Shown piece by piece: positions 2,150-19,452 of a DNA stretch of 26,401 nucleotides. The DNA comes from a virus. Under the pieces are notes generated by a model. The model ran no database searches. It was not told the DNA's origin and worked only from the letters and a program-made list of their open reading frames with translations. Where the stretch lies: positions 1-26,401 of IMG/VR virus record IMGVR_UViG_3300017969_000116; one strand, written 5' to 3'. A program made the translations under genes and the position numbers. Each line of letters begins with the position of its first letter. Position 1 is the stretch's first letter.

Positions 2150-2599
2150 ATGGGACACAAAAACTACACCCAAGGGATTTACGAACCATTAAACAAGAAA
2201 AAATATACTGGTTCATATCCTATTGTATATAGATCTTCATTGGAGAAGAAAGTTTTTTATCTGTTAGATAAAAGTCCGAAAGTCTCGAAATGGGGCAGTG
2301 AAAGTGTTGTGATACCCTATAAAAGTCCTGCTGACAATAAAGTACATCGTTATTTCGTTGATGTTAACTTCACATTCACAGATTCTAATGGGAAAGCTAT
2401 TAAATATCTCATTGAGATCAAACCCTTTAGACAAACTTTAAAACCTGAAAAGACACCAAGGAAAAGGGAGAAAACCTTCCTCAAAGAGTCTTACACTTGG
2501 GCAATAAACCAAGCAAAATGGCAAGCGGCTGATGCGTGGGCTCGAAAGAATGGGTATATGTTCAAGATTATAACTGAAAAAGATATGATGTTAGGTTAG
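2150..2599 (+). CDS. 4: Head completion nuclease (T4 gp4-like)
   Basis: A 149-residue protein of the T4 gp4 (gp50) head-completion family, which has a TnsA-like endonuclease fold. It acts on filled heads before tail joining. Visible features are RSSLEKKVFYLLD (about residues 27-39, with the conserved Glu), KWGSE, FVDVNF (about 66-71, Asp) and LIEIKP (about 85-90, the Glu-x-Lys of the nuclease site). Its length is close to T4 gp4. The ATG directly follows the portal TAA with no visible ribosome binding site in the GC-rich repeat, so it probably depends on re-initiation after gp20. Its 3' end overlaps the convergent gp14 gene by four bases. Confidence 0.88.
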   Translation: MGHKNYTQGIYEPLNKKKYTGSYPIVYRSSLEKKVFYLLDKSPKVSKWGSESVVIPYKSPADNKVHRYFVDVNFTFTDSNGKAIKYLIEIKPFRQTLKPEKTPRKREKTFLKESYTWAINQAKWQAADAWARKNGYMFKIITEKDMMLG

Positions 2600-3447
2600 T
2601 ATGAGCCATATACACTGTCTAAATCCCCATTTTCGTTATAATTGAAGTTTTCATCAGCGTCTGTTTGACCATCTTGATCATATTTCTTATCAGGACTTTG
2701 TGGATTCTCTCCACCGGACAACCTCCCGAAGAATGTTTCGTCTGACACTTGTTCGCGACCACCTTCAAATGGCGCTTCAGGCTCATAAGAATGGTCGTAA
2801 CGCTTCGCTTTGATGTGCCATGCATAAACACCCTGAAGTCTATTTATATTCAACTGTGGAGCCAAATCTCGACGTTCTGTGATTTCGAAAACGGGGGCTG
2901 TTCTCAACCAATCTTGCATTTCAGTTTCATATGCGGACATATAATCTGTAAAAGCATCATTAAACTCATCGGGACTCTTACATTTCTTAATTCCTGAGAG
3001 TTCCTGTATAATTTCTTCAGCAGAATAGAAGAAATTCCATCCACCCCCCGGTCTCATCATACCTAATTCATCTAATCTTATTAAATCACCCGATTTCGGT
3101 TCGGGGAACGTTTGTGTAGCTGAAAATTGTTCATTAAAGGAGCGGATTGGTATGATAACCGTCAAATCAGCATCATTCATGATTCCAAACTTACTTAAAA
3201 GTAAGGAATCTTGGTTCATTTCCGCTAATACAACCATTTCTTGTGGAGTTTGGAATCGGGCCGTTACATCTTCGCTATACAACCAGTCATGAGCGGTTAA
3301 ACTGTAACCGTGAACGTAATATGACACTTTGGTGCCGTATAAATCAACAGCTTCAACGAGTAAATCCTCTTGAAGCTTAATATCGCTATTGAGATCTTCT
3401 ACATCGGCAAACCTTGAACTACCGCAATTCTTTTTAAATTTCTTCAT
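2596..3447 (-). CDS. 14: Neck protein (T4 gp14-like)
   Basis: A 283-residue homologue of T4 gp14, which with gp13 seals the portal of the filled head and makes the tail attachment site. Family resemblance is best in the N-terminal half: LLVEAVDLYGTKVSYYVHGY (about 29-48), a DWLYSEDV segment, LLSKFGIMNDADLTVIIP, and SGDLIRLDELG. In T4 the corresponding pattern is GTDIHYIPR, then a KFGM segment, then EGDLIYFP. The C-terminus (from about 225) is acidic, Asn/Gly-rich and probably disordered. The start is the ATG at 3447, which lies only eight bases from a perfect TATAAATA and has no ribosome binding site. gp13 is on the same strand upstream but is separated by two endonuclease genes and one small gene. 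Confidence 0.8.
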   Translation of the reverse strand: MKKFKKNCGSSRFADVEDLNSDIKLQEDLLVEAVDLYGTKVSYYVHGYSLTAHDWLYSEDVTARFQTPQEMVVLAEMNQDSLLLSKFGIMNDADLTVIIPIRSFNEQFSATQTFPEPKSGDLIRLDELGMMRPGGGWNFFYSAEEIIQELSGIKKCKSPDEFNDAFTDYMSAYETEMQDWLRTAPVFEITERRDLAPQLNINRLQGVYAWHIKAKRYDHSYEPEAPFEGGREQVSDETFFGRLSGGENPQSPDKKYDQDGQTDADENFNYNENGDLDSVYGSY

Positions 3448-3455
3448 GCTTTAAA

Positions 3456-3463
3456 TATTTATA
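3456..3463 (-). promoter_or_regulatory. Perfect T4 late promoter TATAAATA of gp14
   Basis: Minus-strand TATAAATA ends eight bases before the gp14 ATG. The stop codon TAA of the upstream LAGLIDADG gene (3459-3461) is part of this octamer. Transcripts starting the usual six or so bases downstream would begin almost at the AUG. Confidence 0.75.
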
Positions 3464-4277
3464 TATTTGAGTAATAGTCTCTTATTATTTTGTATTTTAA
3501 ATATTTCCTTTCAAGGTATAATTCAGTTTCAATGTTCTTATACATAGGACTAAATGTTTTTTCGATGTTACTGCAATTTATATTGAGGTTGTAATTGTTT
3601 TTATATTTATTAATTTTTGTATTTAATTTTAAAAAATCATGAATCATCTTAGCGAAAGGTTCAGAACCAGATGTGAAGTTTGCTCTCCCTTCAAATCTTC
3701 CGAAAGAATTAAAAAAATGAGTAAAACAACCATCCCCGTCGAAACATCCTCTTATGAAAGCCCATTTATTTTCTTCACATAACCCCGAAAACCATTTTGT
3801 CACATCAAGACTTAAAGATTTTTTAGGCGATAATCCTATACTAAGACAATATTCATAAAAGTTGTGATTTGTTAAATGTATGTAATTTGATTTATTAGAT
3901 CCACTATGTATTCTCCCTCCATATAACGACTGTAACTCTTTTAATAGCTTTAACTCATCTGGATATTTAGATCCAAAACCTAGTACTACGGTTTCACCCC
4001 TCTTTTTTCGATTAACATAACCATCGGATGCTATTAACCCTAAAAGATAGTTGAAATTGGGGGTGTCTTTATGGTCCATGATTTTTGCTGTTAATGGATT
4101 ATTATAGTTTTGTTTACAAACTTGATTGCAGAAATTTTTTCTTTTATATACAGATTTATTTTTAGCTCTATATACCTTCTCATTGCAATATTCACAATTG
4201 ACTTCTGCCAATTCTCTATTGTTTCTAAAAGCTTTCCCCTCTTTAAAGATTATTTCATATTTTGATTTATCTCTCAT
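3459..4277 (-). CDS. Free-standing LAGLIDADG homing endonuclease
   Basis: A 272-residue protein with two LAGLIDADG helices: YLLGLIASDG (about 77-86) and FIRGCFDGDG (about 174-183). The acidic residues at or near the ends of these motifs are the metal-binding catalytic residues of the family. An N-terminal zinc-ribbon-like region has two Cys pairs (C28/C31 and C50/C54) and may add DNA binding. Two motifs in one chain imply a monomeric enzyme with two pseudo-symmetric halves cutting a long asymmetric site. It stands free between the neck genes rather than inside an intron. Expression appears controlled by a hairpin that hides its ribosome binding site (4281-4322). It is more AT-rich than the virion genes, which fits recent transfer. 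Confidence 0.9.
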   Translation of the reverse strand: MRDKSKYEIIFKEGKAFRNNRELAEVNCEYCNEKVYRAKNKSVYKRKNFCNQVCKQNYNNPLTAKIMDHKDTPNFNYLLGLIASDGYVNRKKRGETVVLGFGSKYPDELKLLKELQSLYGGRIHSGSNKSNYIHLTNHNFYEYCLSIGLSPKKSLSLDVTKWFSGLCEENKWAFIRGCFDGDGCFTHFFNSFGRFEGRANFTSGSEPFAKMIHDFLKLNTKINKYKNNYNLNINCSNIEKTFSPMYKNIETELYLERKYLKYKIIRDYYSNI

Positions 4278-4617: not shown

Positions 4618-4661
4618 CTTATGAAGGAAACGGGTTTCGTTTTTGAAAGGTGTATGATCAT

Positions 4662-6299
4662 ATGAAATGTGAAATATGTGGGAAAAGTTACGAGAGATTA
4701 GCTCATTTATCGGGACACGTAAAACGAGTTCACAATATAGATTTTAAAACTTACTATGATAGGTATTTGAAAGTTGAGGGTGAGGGGGAATGTGAAACGT
4801 GTGGTGCCCCCACTACATTCTCTAAAGGGAAATACGCATCTTTTTGTTCGAATAAATGTATTAATGCTCATGAGGGTGTGAAGCAGAAGATGTCAGCGAG
4901 CATTAAAAAGACTTTATCCGAAAAGACGGATAGCGAATGGGAGGATATAAACAAAAAGAGAGTTGAGACGGTCTTAAAGAGACACGGGGTTGAAAACATC
5001 AGTCAGAAAGAAGAGATACGCCAATCGAGAAGTGAAAACACCTTTCTTGCTACTGAAGAAAATAGGGAAATATTAAAATCTTTGGATTGGGAATCTATTC
5101 AAGAGAAAAGAACTAAAACAAACCTAAAAAGGTATGGACATATAACACCCGCTAAATCGAAACCTGTAAGAGATAAAATATCGTCAACAAAAAGAAAAGA
5201 TTTCTTTAAGAAGATGGACCTTTTCGAAAAGGTTGCCACCCCCTTATTCAATATAGAGGAATATGAGGGGGGTAAAAGTAAACCATATCCTTGGAAGTGT
5301 AGTGTCTGTGGTGATGTTTTTGAAGCGTATATAGATTCAGGGAAACTCCCTAGATGTTTAAGTTGTTATCCGAAGATAAAATCCAATTTGGAAAGTGATG
5401 TCGTAACATTCTTAGAACAACATGGTGTTAAAGTTAAGAAGAATGATAGAACATTAATCAACCCACTGGAAATTGATATATTATTAGAGGATTTTAATAT
5501 AGGCATCGAGATAAATGGACTTTATTGGCATTCAGAAAGTAGTGGTGGTAAAGATAGCAAATATCACTTGAATAAATTGAAATGTTGTGAAGAAAAGGGT
5601 ATTAAATTAATTCATATATTCGAGGATGAATTGATAACTCATCGTGATATCGTTTTTAGTAAGTTGCTCAATTTTATTTCGAAGAGTGAAAAGAAGATAT
5701 ATGCGAGGAAATGTGAAGTCAGAGAGATCGACAAAAAACAAAAGAAAAGCTTTTTAGAATGTAACCATTTACAAGGCGACGACAGATCTTCGGTATGTCT
5801 TGGTGCTTTTTTTAACGGAGAATTGGTTTCTGTAATGACCTTTTCTAAGGGGAGAGTCTGTTTAAACACTAAAGGTGAAGATAAATGGGAACTTTCAAGG
5901 TTTTGTTCGTCCATAAATCATAGTGTTGTCGGTATAGCAAGTAAACTTTTAAAATATTTTGAGAAGCAGTATTCACCGAATAGTTTAACCACTTATGCGG
6001 ATAGAAGGTGGTCGAGTGGGGGCCTTTATTATAATTTAGGGTTCAATATGTCACATGAATCAAGACCTAGTTATTGGTATTTTAAATATGGGTATTATGA
6101 ACGACACCACAGATTCAATTTTCGTAAAAATATCTTACATAAGAAGTTAGAGTCGTTTGACGAGCAATTGACCGAGTGGGAAAATATGCAACTTAACGGG
6201 TATGATAGAATATGGGACTGCGGCACCTTCGTTTTTAAGAAGCATTACCCGACGAAGAACATAGGCGGCGGCGTTTCCGCAAATCCGTATCCGGTGTAG
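4662..6299 (+). CDS. EDxHD (Vsr-like) homing endonuclease with zinc fingers
   Basis: A 545-residue mobile endonuclease of the phage EDxHD/Vsr-like group (I-Bth0305I type). The N-terminus has a C2H2-like finger (CEICGKSYERLAHLSGHVKRVH) and a Cys-rich zinc ribbon (CETCGAP and CSNKC). Helical DNA-binding stretches follow, then another Cys cluster (CSVCGDVF and CLSC). The nuclease core is near residues 269-325: LEIDILLEDFNIGIEINGLY, WHSE, and LIHIFEDEL. The C-terminal region (YARKCEVREIDKKQ, FLECNHLQGDDRSS) is typical of these proteins. ATG 4662 is preferred because AAAGG lies about 11 bases upstream; GTG 4650 in the same frame is an alternative. The last 55 bases run antisense into the end of gp13, so the final residues are probably acquired readthrough sequence. 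Confidence 0.85.
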   Translation: MKCEICGKSYERLAHLSGHVKRVHNIDFKTYYDRYLKVEGEGECETCGAPTTFSKGKYASFCSNKCINAHEGVKQKMSASIKKTLSEKTDSEWEDINKKRVETVLKRHGVENISQKEEIRQSRSENTFLATEENREILKSLDWESIQEKRTKTNLKRYGHITPAKSKPVRDKISSTKRKDFFKKMDLFEKVATPLFNIEEYEGGKSKPYPWKCSVCGDVFEAYIDSGKLPRCLSCYPKIKSNLESDVVTFLEQHGVKVKKNDRTLINPLEIDILLEDFNIGIEINGLYWHSESSGGKDSKYHLNKLKCCEEKGIKLIHIFEDELITHRDIVFSKLLNFISKSEKKIYARKCEVREIDKKQKKSFLECNHLQGDDRSSVCLGAFFNGELVSVMTFSKGRVCLNTKGEDKWELSRFCSSINHSVVGIASKLLKYFEKQYSPNSLTTYADRRWSSGGLYYNLGFNMSHESRPSYWYFKYGYYERHHRFNFRKNILHKKLESFDEQLTEWENMQLNGYDRIWDCGTFVFKKHYPTKNIGGGVSANPYPV

Positions 6300-7591
6300 A
6301 GTTCTCTTTCTAGTTCTTCTTTTCTCTTTAGACCATATTGCTGTAGATCACTGTAATTGATAGTCCCCCCACCAATAGGTAATGCCATATTTGTAAATTT
6401 ACCGTAAATACGACCAAGGGCGACACATGTCAATGCAATAGTATACTCATTCACCCACGGTTCCGCAATTAGATCTCTCACACGCCTCTCAACGTAACAT
6501 CCCACCACACCTGTGTACCGCTGATTAACGTACGGTTCAGGGAGAATCCTCATTATCTGAGTTTTGTTGTCGAATCTAATGAGAGGAACTTGAGCTAGAA
6601 CTTTCTTTCTCGTATCTAACCAACCTTTTAGAACCTCCCACGTAACAAGGTCAAAGCCCGTGCTACCAAGCATGTATCCGAAGTAAGTTTGTTGTACCAT
6701 AGCCTGTTCAAGTGTGAAGAGGGTGTTGATACCGACACCTTCACCTTGCTCGAATCCGAAAACGTCAATAACTTTTCTATGATCCCCTAAATCATAGTCA
6801 AAGGATGGGGTGTCTTGGCGACTATCCATATTTTGTTTCATTTCAGGTGTTATGGAGAAAAGATCGTCCATTTTTATACCATAACCCGTTTTGTAAAGGC
6901 TTGTGTTAAATACCAAGTACTCTTCAGTGTAGCCTGCGTATTTAGTGTAGTACTCAAGAGCCTGATCAATGAAATCTACAATAGTTTCATCGCAAATGTT
7001 AACTTTGATGTTAGGGTAACCTAAGTTGCGCTTAACTCTTTCAATTAACTTCGAATAGGTTTTTATTTTCGAGTTGAGGTGGGTTGCGCCTTCATCTTCC
7101 GTCACATCTTCAACCAAATTGTGTATTAGAGTGGTTGTGACATCTATAGCACTTGCTGGTGAGGTTTGATCTCCCATAAATTCGCCTGAGAAGCTATAAA
7201 GCGGCATACCATAAAAATCATCGTTAGCGTTTATCGAGACAAAGCTTGAAAGGGTATCCACAGTGGAGACTACTGTTGGGTCGATGAACTTTAAATCGAT
7301 GAAATTATCATCATCTTGATCGACTTTGTAGATTGGAACTGCGAACTCTTCCCCATTAACTCTCAGGGACACCCCCACATCATATGCAGTAGCAGTATTG
7401 TAGAAGGTAGGGTTCTTTAGAATGAATTCGGAACCTTGTAATTCAAAAAGACTTATATCTGGTGTGGAAGAACTGAACTTATAAACTGGAATTGCGATCT
7501 GTTTTCCGTGGAGTTCTGCAACCATGTAATGTTCCGTTGAAGTGACGCCCGTAAAAATTGTGCTATTTTCGAATTTTATGATATCAGCCAT
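6245..7591 (-). CDS. 13: Neck protein (T4 gp13-like) with a repeated N-terminal extension
   Basis: A 448-residue gp13 homologue; T4 gp13 is 309. The gp13-like part starts near residue 175 (LIERVKRNLGYPNIKVNICD, then FIDQALEYYTKYAGYTEEYL) and runs to the C-terminus. There LGRIYGKFTNMALPIGGGTI and a Glu/Lys-rich helix match the family end. gp13 with gp14 closes the filled head and makes the tail docking platform. Residues about 11-140 are an additional beta-rich region with three related units centred on IPVYKF (34), VPIYKV (85) and MPLYSF (129), not expected in gp13. A late-type promoter lies upstream, but no clear ribosome binding site sits near the ATG. The 3' end is overlapped on the other strand by the EDxHD gene. 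Confidence 0.8.
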   Translation of the reverse strand: MADIIKFENSTIFTGVTSTEHYMVAELHGKQIAIPVYKFSSSTPDISLFELQGSEFILKNPTFYNTATAYDVGVSLRVNGEEFAVPIYKVDQDDDNFIDLKFIDPTVVSTVDTLSSFVSINANDDFYGMPLYSFSGEFMGDQTSPASAIDVTTTLIHNLVEDVTEDEGATHLNSKIKTYSKLIERVKRNLGYPNIKVNICDETIVDFIDQALEYYTKYAGYTEEYLVFNTSLYKTGYGIKMDDLFSITPEMKQNMDSRQDTPSFDYDLGDHRKVIDVFGFEQGEGVGINTLFTLEQAMVQQTYFGYMLGSTGFDLVTWEVLKGWLDTRKKVLAQVPLIRFDNKTQIMRILPEPYVNQRYTGVVGCYVERRVRDLIAEPWVNEYTIALTCVALGRIYGKFTNMALPIGGGTINYSDLQQYGLKRKEELERELYTGYGFAETPPPMFFVG

Positions 7592-15834: not shown

Positions 15835-16962
15835 ATGCCATACGCTGATCCAGAGAAGAAGAAACAGAAAGATAAGGAATATCGCGAAGCCAATCGTGAG
15901 TATTACAGAAAAAAGGCTTTAGAACACTACGAGAAGAACAAAGCCGAGAAACTGGAATACGGAAAAGAATATTACGAGAAGAACAAAGAGGCTAGGTTGG
16001 AGTATGCTAAAAAGAGGAACGAATTTAAGAAGAAAAAAGTGAAAGAGTACAATTACAAAGAGAGTGAAGCGAGGAAGAAGGAAAGTATGAAGAATTTTCC
16101 TCGTAACGCTGAGAGCATACGTTTCAAAGATCATTTAGATTACAGTTATTCACAGGAGTTATGTCGTAAGGAGTATGAGAAGATTGGTAGGACATCTGGG
16201 ACTTATCACACTAAAGATATGACAATGAACAAGATTATTTTGACGTATCAGCCTCATTTTTACAAGGTTGAGAAGGAACGTTGGTTGAATGATGTTGATG
16301 GTATACGTGATTTTCTATTGAAGAATAGGTTAAAGTACATTTACAAGGATGAGTACCAGATAAATGACAAGGAAGTTTTACGTGGTTTTAAGATTTCTGG
16401 TAAATATATAGGATTTACACACTTTAACCCCTTATGGATAAAGGGGTTTATAGAGAAACATGGTATTAATAGTCTATATGATCCATGTGCGGGGTGGGGT
16501 CATAGGTTACTAGGTGCGTGTAGTACTGGTATTGATTACATTTGCAACGATTTCGACGAGGAAACCACACAAGGTCTGCTAGATATAATCGAAGACTTCA
16601 ATATCGATAACGCTACGGTGTATAATGAAGACTGTAAGAGTTTCATACCAGAAGAAGATTACGAAGCGGTTTTTACTTGCCCACCGTATTATAATGTTGA
16701 AAGGTATAATGGAAAGACCTTTAAAGATATAGAGGATTTTGACAATTTTCTATATTTGATGGTGAAGAACTCTCTGAAACCATCAGTTAAGATTGTTGGA
16801 ATAGTTATGAACGTGACTTATATGGACAATGTTGAAAAAGCTTGTAAAGACAACGGTTTAACTTTGGAATATATGGTGGAATTTGGATCGAAAAAGAACC
16901 ATTTTCAAAGGGACGAAAGGAATATCGTTAAAAACGAGATATTAATGGTATTTAAGAGGTGA
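15835..16962 (+). CDS. DNA methyltransferase with charged repeat N-terminus
   Basis: A 375-residue protein. Residues about 5-75 are Lys/Glu/Tyr-rich repeats (YREANREYY, YEKNKAEKLEY, YEKNKEARLEY) like those of the preceding HNH protein. A connecting domain follows (about 95-205). The C-terminal Rossmann methyltransferase has the S-adenosylmethionine motif YDPCAGWGHRLLGA (215-228) and the catalytic motif TCPPYYNVERY (281-291). It most resembles amino-methyltransferases (N6-adenine or N4-cytosine) of phages, in which motif IV is usually D/N/S-PP-Y; a Cys in that place here is unusual. ACAGGAG precedes the ATG. It is followed after one base by the next gene, so it opens a coupled operon. It may protect phage DNA from the host or from the neighbouring nuclease. 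Target unknown. Confidence 0.8.
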   Translation: MPYADPEKKKQKDKEYREANREYYRKKALEHYEKNKAEKLEYGKEYYEKNKEARLEYAKKRNEFKKKKVKEYNYKESEARKKESMKNFPRNAESIRFKDHLDYSYSQELCRKEYEKIGRTSGTYHTKDMTMNKIILTYQPHFYKVEKERWLNDVDGIRDFLLKNRLKYIYKDEYQINDKEVLRGFKISGKYIGFTHFNPLWIKGFIEKHGINSLYDPCAGWGHRLLGACSTGIDYICNDFDEETTQGLLDIIEDFNIDNATVYNEDCKSFIPEEDYEAVFTCPPYYNVERYNGKTFKDIEDFDNFLYLMVKNSLKPSVKIVGIVMNVTYMDNVEKACKDNGLTLEYMVEFGSKKNHFQRDERNIVKNEILMVFKR

Positions 16963-16963
16963 T

Positions 16964-17155
16964 ATGCGCGAATGTTGTTCATGGGACGATGAAATTTGTC
17001 GAGAATGGGCGAGGTTTGAGTGTAAGAAGTTATGGTTATTCGGACCCAACCCTAAAGAGGACGAGGTAATTCCACAGATGGAAGAGTTTTGGGAGGAAAA
17101 TAAAGAACATTTACAGAAGGTAGGTAAATATTCATATAAAGGAAATTATAAATGA
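16964..17155 (+). CDS. Small Trp/Cys-containing hypothetical protein
   Basis: A 63-residue acidic protein with three Cys and five Trp (CCSWDDEICREWARFECKKL, then FWEENKEHLQK). I do not recognise a family. The ATG starts one base after the methyltransferase stop, with AGAGGTGAT as a strong ribosome binding site inside the previous gene. Its TGA overlaps the next ATG (ATGA). These junctions make it very likely a translated member of the operon. It has no signal peptide or membrane segment. Confidence 0.75.
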   Translation: MRECCSWDDEICREWARFECKKLWLFGPNPKEDEVIPQMEEFWEENKEHLQKVGKYSYKGNYK

Positions 17156-17673
17156 AAAGAACAATTATATTAGTGGTGATGGCGGTGATGGTGGGTTTAT
17201 CCACTACAGGGTGTTTTCGAACAATTAAGAAGGTTATTGGTATTGATGAAGGTTCAAAACCTGAAGGTGTTGAATGGGTAATGCCAGATTACGCATTTAA
17301 CAAGTTTAAGGAATATATGGCCGTTACTATGAGAAATGATGGTGACCCACGTTGGGAAGCTATCTTATCAATGCCAAAGCCGAAATTTGTGTTAATGAAA
17401 CCTACACAGATTCATAATGGTCGTCCATTTTTTTACATCAAAGATGTAGGTTCTGTGTCGGGGTATTATAACCATAAAATAGACACTGCGTATATTGCAG
17501 CGGATGAAGTAGACCCCTCAAAGATACATCCTTGGATTGATGGGGATTGGATTTTAATTTTCCATGAACTTCAACATGCTGTATTAGATTTAGCGTGGGG
17601 ACAGAAGTACGAGGGACATCCTATGCATCCCATATTCAAGTTTCGAGTGAGTAAAGGTAAATTAGGCTTATAG
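17152..17673 (+). CDS. Lipoprotein with an HExxH zinc-metalloprotease motif
   Basis: A 173-residue exported protein. The N-terminus is a lipoprotein signal: basic MKR, a hydrophobic core (IILVVMAVMVGL) and lipobox TTGC with Cys21 as the lipidated residue. Residue +2 is Phe, not Asp, which in Gram-negative bacteria favours the outer membrane. HELQH at 138-142 is an HExxH zincin site (His138, Glu139, His142). GHPMHP (155-160) could give the third zinc ligand. This makes it a candidate envelope protease or peptidase, though activity is inferred from motif only. The start overlaps the preceding stop (ATGA) and the glycosyltransferase begins four bases after its TAG. A role in lysis, envelope change or superinfection exclusion is possible. 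Confidence 0.78.
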   Translation: MKRTIILVVMAVMVGLSTTGCFRTIKKVIGIDEGSKPEGVEWVMPDYAFNKFKEYMAVTMRNDGDPRWEAILSMPKPKFVLMKPTQIHNGRPFFYIKDVGSVSGYYNHKIDTAYIAADEVDPSKIHPWIDGDWILIFHELQHAVLDLAWGQKYEGHPMHPIFKFRVSKGKLGL

Positions 17674-17677
17674 GGCG

Positions 17678-18421
17678 ATGCATATTGGTTTAACATTTCC
17701 CACAAAAGGGAGAGTTGAAAAGGTAGAGAGGCTGATTGCTTCTCTACGAGGGTTCGATCCCGATAAGCATAAGGTCACCCTTTACTTAGGATTGAGTGAG
17801 GACGATCCTCAATATGACTTATATTTAGATCTTGAAACACGTTATAAGGGCGATATTTCAGTTAAATGCGTGACTCTTTCAAAATGGGAAGGGCTTGGTG
17901 AGGCGTTTAATGAGATAATAGAGAAATCGGGCGATGAGATAGAGACATATTCTATGTTTGGAGACGACATGGTGTTTAAATCAAGTCCCCAAATAGTCTT
18001 CGATGAGATAGAACACTTCTTCAATTCAGAGTGCGATGCGTCCAAATTAGGGGTCATAAGTTTCAATGATGGGTTTCACAACAAGAATCGACCAGACCCT
18101 ATAGCAATTAATGGGTTTGTACATAGTAATTGGGTGGATTGCTTAGGAATGTTTATACCTTCGTCGTTTTATGCAGATTATAGTGATAATTGGCTTGCGG
18201 ATATAGGTAAAATGATAGGAAGATGGAAATATTGTCCAGATATAACCATCGAACATCTCCATTTTGTTTATAATAAATCGGAGATGGATGATAGGTGTCT
18301 CGAAAAGCTTAAATTTGATCAAAGTAGGAGTCAGAGGTCTTCGGTTATTTATGATCGGGAAAGGTTAAAGTACAAAGATATTCTAAATATAATGACTAGG
18401 TATGGTGTGACTGTAAAATGA
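17678..18421 (+). CDS. Glycosyltransferase (GT-A, family 2-like)
   Basis: A 247-residue protein with the start of a GT-A nucleotide-sugar transferase (IGLTFPTKGRVEKVERLIAS) and an acidic metal/sugar-nucleotide motif MFGDDMVF (Asp96/Asp97). Later residues DNWLADIG (170-177) and EHLHF (192-196) occupy the places where phage GT-A enzymes carry acceptor-side acidic and metal-binding His residues. No membrane segment is seen, so it is probably cytoplasmic. The acceptor is unknown: phage DNA bases, virion proteins or host surface sugar are all possible. It is the last gene of the methyltransferase operon and is followed by a structured element at 18421-18482. Confidence 0.8.
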   Translation: MHIGLTFPTKGRVEKVERLIASLRGFDPDKHKVTLYLGLSEDDPQYDLYLDLETRYKGDISVKCVTLSKWEGLGEAFNEIIEKSGDEIETYSMFGDDMVFKSSPQIVFDEIEHFFNSECDASKLGVISFNDGFHNKNRPDPIAINGFVHSNWVDCLGMFIPSSFYADYSDNWLADIGKMIGRWKYCPDITIEHLHFVYNKSEMDDRCLEKLKFDQSRSQRSSVIYDRERLKYKDILNIMTRYGVTVK

Positions 18422-18482
18422 AAGCCAAGAGGGGAAGAAGATTGAAAAAGTCTAATTCCCCTCATATTGGTAATTGGCTTTT
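18421..18482. terminator. Nested hairpin between the converging glycosyltransferase and tRNA transcripts
   Basis: Outer arms AAAGCCAA (18421-18428) and TTGGCTTT (18474-18481) enclose an inner hairpin GAGGGGAA (18429-18436) with TTCCCCTC (18456-18463). A T-rich end follows on the plus strand, and the structure is symmetric enough to serve both converging transcripts. It lacks the compact stem plus U-run of a textbook terminator. Confidence 0.5.
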
Positions 18483-18530
18483 ATGGTATACGAGGAAAAA
18501 GACCTGTAGAAAGTGGAAAAGGGGGTAAAG

Positions 18531-18604
18531 TGGTACGCCCAAGGGGAATCGAACCCCTGCCCTCAGAGCGAAAATCTGATGTTCTACCACTAAACTATGG
18601 GCGC
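18531..18604 (-). tRNA. tRNA-Glu (anticodon TTC)
   Basis: A 74-base cloverleaf: acceptor GCGCCCA with TGGGCGT (G1-T72 wobble), anticodon stem TCAGA/TCTGA with loop TTTTCGC giving anticodon TTC, T-arm AGGGG-TTCGATT-CCCCT, discriminator A and encoded CCA. It is the last of three tRNA genes, two bases after tRNA-Ile. Confidence 0.93.
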
Positions 18605-18606
18605 AA

Positions 18607-18683
18607 TGGTGGGGGTGGATGGAGTCGAACCATCGACCTTCGGTTTATCAGACCGACACTCTAACCGACTGAGCTACACCCCC
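18607..18683 (-). tRNA. tRNA-Ile (anticodon GAT)
   Basis: A 77-base cloverleaf: acceptor GGGGGTG/CACCCCC, anticodon stem TCGGT/ACCGA with loop CTGATAA giving anticodon GAT, T-arm GATGG-TTCGACT-CCATC, discriminator A and encoded CCA. It reads ATC and ATT codons. Confidence 0.95.
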
Positions 18684-18684
18684 G

Positions 18685-18758
18685 TAAGGAGAGCGAGATT
18701 CGAACTCGCGACCTCATGAACCCAAATCATGCGTTCTTCCCGACTGAACTATCCCCTT
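18685..18758 (-). tRNA. tRNA-Pro (anticodon TGG)
   Basis: A 74-base cloverleaf: acceptor AAGGGGA/TCTCCTT with one G-T pair, anticodon stem CATGA/TCATG with loop TTTGGGT giving anticodon TGG and G37, T-arm GCGAG-TTCGAAT-CTCGC, discriminator A. CCA is not encoded; one base separates it from tRNA-Ile. The first pair is A1-T72 rather than the C1-G72 usual for bacterial tRNA-Pro. Confidence 0.85.
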
Positions 18759-18774
18759 ATTAAATTGTCTTACA

Positions 18775-18803
18775 ACTGTATCAGGTTGTTTTCGTAATTA
18801 CAA
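18775..18803 (-). promoter_or_regulatory. Sigma70-like promoter of the tRNA cluster
   Basis: On the minus strand TTGTAA (18803-18798), a 17-base spacer, and TGA-TACAGT with an extended -10 TG. The -10 ends 17 bases before tRNA-Pro. It is host-type and thus probably early. Confidence 0.6.
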
Positions 18804-18827
18804 CTCCTTTCGATTGTTTTTTATACG

Positions 18828-18863
18828 AAAAAACCCTCCCGATCATTTCTGATGGGAGGGTTT
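18828..18863 (-). terminator. Intrinsic terminator of the minus-strand virion genes
   Basis: Minus-strand AAACCCTCCC and GGGAGGGTTT form a ten-base stem extended inside by ATCA/TGAT, followed by six T. It ends transcription from the Ig-like gene before the tRNA promoter. Confidence 0.85.
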
Positions 18864-18905
18864 CGAAAATCTGAACTACTTTTTTAACAAGCAGAACGGT
18901 ATCGT

Positions 18906-18930
18906 AACCATCCCATCAGAATGGGTGGTT
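18906..18930. repeat. Inverted repeat in the 3' untranslated region
   Basis: AACCATCCCAT (18906-18916) pairs with ATGGGTGGTT (18921-18930), a ten-pair stem with one G-T pair when one unpaired base is left in the loop. There is no T-run on either side. The minus strand shares CCCATCAGAA with, or nearly with, the terminator at 18828-18863. The function is not evident. Confidence 0.5.
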
Positions 18931-18966
18931 CCTCTCGTTCAATGCTGTTAATGGTGTAATTCATGT

Positions 18967-19452
18967 TTATACGCTTGTTAATGTAAATGTGTCTGTAGCA
19001 ACTATTGTACCAGTATAACCACTTGTTCTCAATTGTAAAGTAAAATCTACATCTGTAGAAACGGCAGTTGCTAATGAGGTTAATTCAAGTGTGGTGGTTT
19101 GGAGTCCTACATTTTCTACTAGAGAAACCGTACCACTTAAACTTGCTATTTCAAAGTCTGTACCATCAATAGCACCATCTGCACCGCTTAATGTGAAGTA
19201 TAGATCTGCTGCTGGTGAAATGTTTGTAGCGGAAATGTCGAATGAAATATTATCACCTTCTTCGTAGGTGTCAGCGCCAACTAATACTGCGTAAGTTGGG
19301 GAGAACACTCCCTCATCGCTAATCCAATTTTCTTCGAAACGATTGTCACGAATTGCTCTTGGTGAAACGTTATATCCTTTTGAGCGGACGCTTTGATAAA
19401 TTCTTAGTTCATCTGCTGTTAAATCATTTTGTGTGATATCTGATGCTCCCAT
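18967..19452 (-). CDS. Ig/Calx-beta-like virion protein, possible head or tail decoration
   Basis: A 161-residue protein. The N-terminal 55 residues are helical (NDLTADELRIYQSVRSKGYN, then SPRAIRDNRFEENW). From about 58 to the end it is a single beta-sandwich-like domain rich in Thr, Ser, Val, Leu and Gly, including YEEGDNISFDISATNI and GADGAIDGTDFEI as in Calx-beta/Ig-like modules. Such modules are common on phage capsids and tails (T4 Hoc is an Ig-like head decoration). A Hoc-like role is an inference from fold and size, not sequence identity. It has a late promoter, ribosome binding site AAAAGGAA and its own terminator, so it is expressed as a late gene, downstream of the probable small terminase. 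Confidence 0.7.
   Translation of the reverse strand: MGASDITQNDLTADELRIYQSVRSKGYNVSPRAIRDNRFEENWISDEGVFSPTYAVLVGADTYEEGDNISFDISATNISPAADLYFTLSGADGAIDGTDFEIASLSGTVSLVENVGLQTTTLELTSLATAVSTDVDFTLQLRTSGYTGTIVATDTFTLTSV

Follow-up and report, generated by a model that had tools for sequence, protein, structure and literature searches.

The DNA analysed here (the window, the whole 26,401-nucleotide stretch of IMG/VR record IMGVR_UViG_3300017969_000116) encodes a neck protein of the T4 gp13 type in which the core is preceded by a long N-terminal extension. This raises the question of what the extension is, where else it is found, and what it might do at the neck of the virion.

The gp13 gene and its surroundings

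The gene is a minus-strand ORF at 6,245–7,591, with its ATG at 7,591, and codes for 448 amino acids. Judged by sequence, the product is a gp13/Ad2 neck protein, in agreement with an earlier reading made from the sequence alone (the sequence-only reading). Residues 159–447 match PHROG 211 (head-tail adaptor Ad2; E = 1.1e-20), a profile built from 25 relatives of the protein matches T4 gp13 chains (E = 2.5e-18), and a Foldseek search with the predicted structure returns only T4 gp13 chains at E ≤ 0.001 (6 of 6; best 9mkb, E = 3.5e-9), with modest TM-scores of 0.25–0.35 by query and 0.44–0.52 by target. Pfam PF11649 (T4_neck-protein) has no match in the window, and the control genomes likewise gave none. 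Many blocks of the predicted core reach pLDDT 74–89, while loops and approximately residues 281–320 are at 40–61. The core begins at residue 159 by the PHROG match and at about 175 by the profile; taken from residue 175 to 448 it occupies 6,248–7,069 (minus strand; PHROG 211, profile and comparison with T4 gp13), and it is joined to the repeated part of the extension by a linker (residues 136–174; 7,070–7,186, minus strand; profile and AlphaFold model). T4 gp13 (PDB 9mkb, 9lu4–9lu7) is similar in core sequence, predicted fold and the presence of a gp14-type neighbour, but differs in having a full domain III, most of which is missing in the window protein, and in lacking an N-terminal extension: as the sequence-only reading had stated, the T4 chain begins directly with the core.

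The start codon, with the residues MAK, is homologous in the window gene and in those of two related loci, L159 and L164. The starts of these two relatives are preceded by TATAAATA / GATAAATA, which we take to be the T4 late-promoter motif, and by an AAAAGG-like stretch close to the start. In the window the upstream region carries TATTTAAAAGG, and AGG about 20 bases before the ATG. The start is credible because of this homology and of the promoter-like and ribosome-site-like stretches in the relatives. In the window as a whole, TATAAATA occurs eight times (2841, 3456, 7700, 9393, 12299, 20022, 20688 and 24553) versus 2.6 expected, a count reached in none of 100 shuffles.

Around the gene is a T4-like cluster of structural genes that also encodes a portal, a major capsid protein and a gp14-type protein. 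The gp14-type neck protein (head closure Hc2; 2,596–3,447, minus strand; PHROG 679, E = 4.4e-11), likely the partner of gp13, is encoded by the next structural gene after it, beyond endonuclease-like ORFs; in L164 the two genes adjoin directly. One of these ORFs (4,650–6,299, plus strand; 5296–6975, minus strand, in L159) runs convergently to gp13 in both the window and L159, and about 50 bases of it overlap the 3' end of gp13. Its zinc-finger, MTES_1575- and Mom-like stretches score below the cut-offs; L164 lacks the ORF. A LAGLIDADG homing-endonuclease-like ORF (3,459–4,277, minus strand) lies between gp13 and gp14, with a similar one near the portal cluster of L120. A TnsA-endonuclease-like protein (2,150–2,599, plus strand; E = 1.1e-19) adjoins the portal gene, as similar ORFs lie close to the portal genes of L120, L159 and L164. 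A host search of genome contigs found none.

A threefold module ahead of the core

Residues 1–180, encoded at 7,050–7,591, contain three copies of a module of about 34 residues, delimited by self-alignment and by alignment of the units: residues 7–40 (FENSTIF...IPVYKFS; 7,472–7,573), 58–91 (LKNPTFY...VPIYKVD; 7,319–7,420) and 102–135 (FIDPTVV...MPLYSFS; 7,187–7,288), all on the minus strand. The consensus is approximately PT[LF]V..VTA.G.FVVLN[VI]NG...AI[PQ]L[YW].[FY]. The internal repeat is real. The best off-diagonal self-alignment of the protein scores 77 versus 26.7 ± 5.2 for shuffled sequences, none of 200 shuffles reaching that value, and in a second test the shuffles gave 27.1 ± 5.2 with a maximum of 48 (n = 100). 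The sequence-only reading had described three related beta-rich units centred on IPVYKF (34), VPIYKV (85) and MPLYSF (129). The relatedness is confirmed, a beta-rich character is probable, and the motif positions are exact; of the spacing of 45–51 residues given there, the 51 holds for the first pair, while the second pair is 44 apart.

Known families offer no match to the extension. Against residues 1–180 Pfam gives no Ig-like or display domain, the one match being Birna_VP4 (E = 0.01, 16.1 bits versus a cut-off of 24). No PHROG matches it (best E = 0.087), nor does any solved structure, and with the module as query the matches to solved structures are at chance level. Searches of cultured phages with the extension alone gave weak matches, the best at E = 0.4. 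In AlphaFold2 predictions the three extension sequences have a mean pLDDT of 38.6, and in full gp13 the extension blocks are at 26–59. At this very low confidence, both predictions hint at one two-stranded hairpin per unit (16–27/30–39 or 21–27/30–38; 69–78/81–91; 117–122/125–130).

The extension is rare. It is present in 3 of 92 distinct gp13 ORFs (window, L159 and L164/L121) gathered by scanning IMG/VR for likeness to gp13, capsid and portal and for the extension itself, frequencies that are not those of nature because the ORFs were collected by gp13, capsid and portal likeness. Nor are the 92 independent, since 69 are left below 95% identity with the partial row L146 dropped, and most of the viral records are fragments. 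Its absence from the other 89 shows that the extension is not general to gp13 proteins, in agreement with the sequence-only reading. In IMG/VR the extension profile finds seven contigs: the identical twin contig of the window (L001/L119), the contig of L159, and five contigs of the L164 type, the L164 protein being found also in L121–L124 and L158. A quick tree of the cores (69 rows) places the three extended proteins near the base of their clade, a position compatible with one origin of the extension or with several, and relatives without the extension include cores 46–52% identical to that of the window.

Between the three extended proteins the units pair one to one, each scoring best against the same-numbered unit of the other two. 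Within L159 and L164 the repeat is at the limit of detection (40 versus shuffles of 24.9 ± 4.5, maximum 40; and 43 versus 27.9 ± 5.4, maximum 45). Because the internal likeness has nearly gone in these two, the triplication probably predates the split of the window, L159 and L164 lineages. L159 and L164 are 27–30% identical to the window in the extension and 58–61% in the core. Between L159 and L164, dN is 0.36 and dS 1.02 in the extension, against 0.15 and 2.64 in the core; by these substitution rates gp13 is under purifying selection that is looser in the extension than in the core.

Other gp13 proteins carry quite different additions. More than 100 residues, counted from the preceding stop codon, lie ahead of the core in 8 of the 92 ORFs, with one long N-terminal domain in L094/L096 and another in L043/L061, and 40 of the 92 have 26 or more residues inserted at one fixed core site (profile position 80). 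In L081 (6182–7561) and L095 (5852–7243) the core-loop insert is about 175 residues long and internally duplicated (self-alignment 139 and 161 versus about 32), and in L128 (5993–8533) and L130 (11884–14427) about 565 residues with many YY...LY.SG repeats lie inside the core loop. The cultured Stenotrophomonas phage RAS14 (L003, 323–3253) encodes an unannotated 976-aa gp13-like protein in which, as in that of the window, a long N-terminal stretch of repeats precedes the core; it differs in the length of this region (about 720 residues) and in its repeats, and the module is unmatched in its record (W01). With many relatives bearing such N-terminal or core-loop extras, gp13 is a repeated site of additions. 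When 16 gp13 extras were compared with all collected ORFs, they had no match outside gp13; by this sequence search the window type is alone among the tested extras in having kin on other proteins.

Likeness to fibre C-termini

The search for the same repeats on other virion proteins, which the sequence-only reading had suggested, finds them on long fibre-like proteins. A profile built from the nine gp13 units was run against 7174 distinct ORFs of the collected loci. Outside gp13, the best match is to the last residues of an ORF in L129 (11872–13329; E = 4.5e-5) and the next to the end of an ORF common to L138 and L147 (E = 0.006). The gp13-unit model reaches the C-termini of fibres with E-values of 1.2e-4 to 6e-3, while no reversed or shuffled ORF does better than 0.37. 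In 25 whole records the gp13-unit profile recovers the six units on the gp13 proteins of G001 and G002 and ten fibre C-terminal ends (E = 4.8e-7 to 0.005), followed by two weaker matches (0.036 and 0.08), the first of which is also a C-terminus. Five of the 25 records had been selected by the tail motif itself (those behind L204, L209, L212, L213 and L215); six of the ten ends are from records not so selected (G001, G005, G006, G007 twice, G010) and four from those that were (G019–G022). Thirteen of the 25 records, four cultured phages included, have no module match at E ≤ 1, and one fibre-end query against cultured phages found no match.

Over all loci a tail profile finds 13 distinct fibre proteins with 14 distinct ends, two of them from one protein. 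The module finishes 0–2 residues before the stop in 12 of the 13 and is internal in one (L215/L234). Fibre-like proteins of L129, L138, L204, L209–L214, L216 and G001, which are repetitive and 400–1245 residues long, are among those that share the approximately 34-residue module with the window gp13, in a single C-terminal copy. The module-bearing proteins have about 400–1500 residues with repeats such as GNYS.V.GG..N.ASG and GNVGIGT..P, and Pfam beta-roll and UspA1-repeat models match them below cut-offs. Behind the portal gene of L129 are two fibres with different bodies and nearly identical ends. Adjoining this pair is a 1051-aa fibre-like protein (16030–19185) that combines beta-roll-like repeats with a lectin domain of the laminin-G/concanavalin kind (E = 9.9e-10).

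The virus of L164 (G001) has both forms, a three-unit gp13 and an 801-aa fibre with the module at its end. This fibre ends in TINGSAFAMPLYKYN, and unit 2 of its own gp13 has FTVNGSAVAVPLYQIE; the fibre end scores 58 against unit 2 of the window and 56 against unit 2 of its own virus. Its N-terminus resembles that of the G005/G017 fibre (MSSR.HNKFHR), indicating that related fibres keep the module. Most pairs of fibre end and gp13 unit outscore all 200 shuffles, with patchy likeness for the G012 fibre ends. The reciprocal search, from fibre ends to gp13 units, is weak: a profile of fibre ends finds gp13 units at E = 0.005 with chance matches of equal size beside them, and another such search finds them at 0.07–0.24 with one reversed decoy at 1.9e-4. 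Taken together, the sequence comparisons make homology of the gp13 units and the fibre ends well supported, and it is more apt to regard the units as putative copies of a module from fibre C-termini than as small beta domains of a generic kind. Fibre proteins of this kind are generally anchored by their N-terminus and trimeric, so the module would probably occupy the distal tip of the fibre.

A rather unlikely alternative is that the extension is a generic surface decoration: copies of a small beta domain, multiplied on gp13, would make weak contact with host or particles, and the likeness to fibre ends would be a chance product of short hairpin-like sequence. For the Ig-like domains of other virions such a weak-contact role has been proposed. 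The extension does evolve more quickly than the core, and the variety of extras on other gp13s indicates that the protein tolerates many kinds of additions. Against this, the fibre matches clearly beat the decoys and are nearly all C-terminal, and Pfam finds neither an Ig-like nor any other domain in the extension.

Possible roles at the neck

The reading somewhat favoured here is that the extension is a fibre-tip module, apparently borrowed by the neck and present three times in one chain, which decorates the neck as a single-chain counterpart of the fibre cap and possibly holds fibres. Each gp13 unit would be a beta-hairpin. At a fibre end three chains would join three hairpins into a cap, and in gp13 the three hairpins would be supplied by a single chain. 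If gp13 is a dodecamer as in T4, twelve caps with 36 modules would surround the neck; facing outward, they would decorate it in place of fibritin whiskers and may also hold folded-back fibres. Several points stand against this reading: structure prediction of the extension is very poor; the reciprocal search from fibre ends is weak, and the G012 ends resemble the gp13 units only in patches; the module is N-terminal and triplicated on gp13 and C-terminal and single on fibres; plain cyanophage gp13s lack domain III, yet have no such extension; and no solved structure or known family contains the module.

The comparison with fibritin rests on the T4 neck, where dodecameric gp13 forms a ring between portal and gp14, its domain III (residues 190–239) binds fibritin, and the bound fibritin makes up six whiskers along with six collar fibres, which contact the long tail fibres (PMC12270204). 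At the domain III site the window protein is about 44 residues shorter than T4 gp13 between flanking aligned points, and for lack of these residues it probably cannot bind fibritin in the T4 manner, which is the ground for placing the modules in the role of whiskers. In six related records fibritin was not found above cut-off (0 of 6), with one weak match in G010. T4 fibritin (wac) offers an analogy, as a neck appendage whose foldon caps the C-terminal end of a fibre with a short hairpin; it is a separate protein in T4, whereas the window modules are part of the gp13 chain. Homology of the module with the foldon was dropped, 161 of 500 shuffles scoring as high. Beta-rich proteins also decorate the necks of Anabaena phage A-1(L), as neck fibres, and of phage Milano, as a collar, but they are separate proteins and not parts of an adaptor chain (PMC10966104, PMC10491603).

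A more specific form of the proposal, a built-in latch, is at present improbable: the modules at distal fibre ends would pair with the three-hairpin copy on gp13 and so hold folded-back fibres, without fibritin, until a host is met. Its geometry and chemistry have precedents in A-1(L), where the distal ends of folded-back tail fibres point to the capsid and parts of the neck fibre are thought to be joined by beta-hairpins of trimers (PMC10966104).

Distal fibre ends commonly bind hosts, and a receptor- or glycan-binding appendage taking part in attachment is conceivable, if doubtful. Lactococcal phages provide an example in neck passage proteins that are reported to carry carbohydrate-binding modules (PMC6669499). 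On the other side, lectin-like families do not match the module, a single conserved end shared by fibres whose bodies differ is more in keeping with a structural cap than with a host-specific tip, and the A-1(L) neck-fibre end did not bind the host (PMC10966104). That the extension merely aids gp13 folding, ring formation or docking to portal or gp14, without display, is very unlikely: it does immediately precede the first core helix, which in T4 is part of the ring-forming helix bundle (PMC12270204), but 89 of the 92 gp13 ORFs manage without it, including the relatives with 46–52% identical cores.

In general terms, domain shuffling is reported to link neck proteins with tail fibres (PMC10684548). 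The literature searched, mostly outside subscription journals, contains no account of the gp13 extension or the module, and as far as this search goes we found no account of a threefold fibre-end module inside a gp13 chain, which would be a new arrangement. The extension may, we infer, serve as neck decoration or fibre latch. The case shows a core protein of the head-tail joint with a module whose other occurrences are at probable fibre tips, and it points to gp13 as a platform to which this phage group adds various extras, always at one of two fixed sites. If the latch were true, fibres would be held without whiskers, which bears on how the neck controls fibre retraction.
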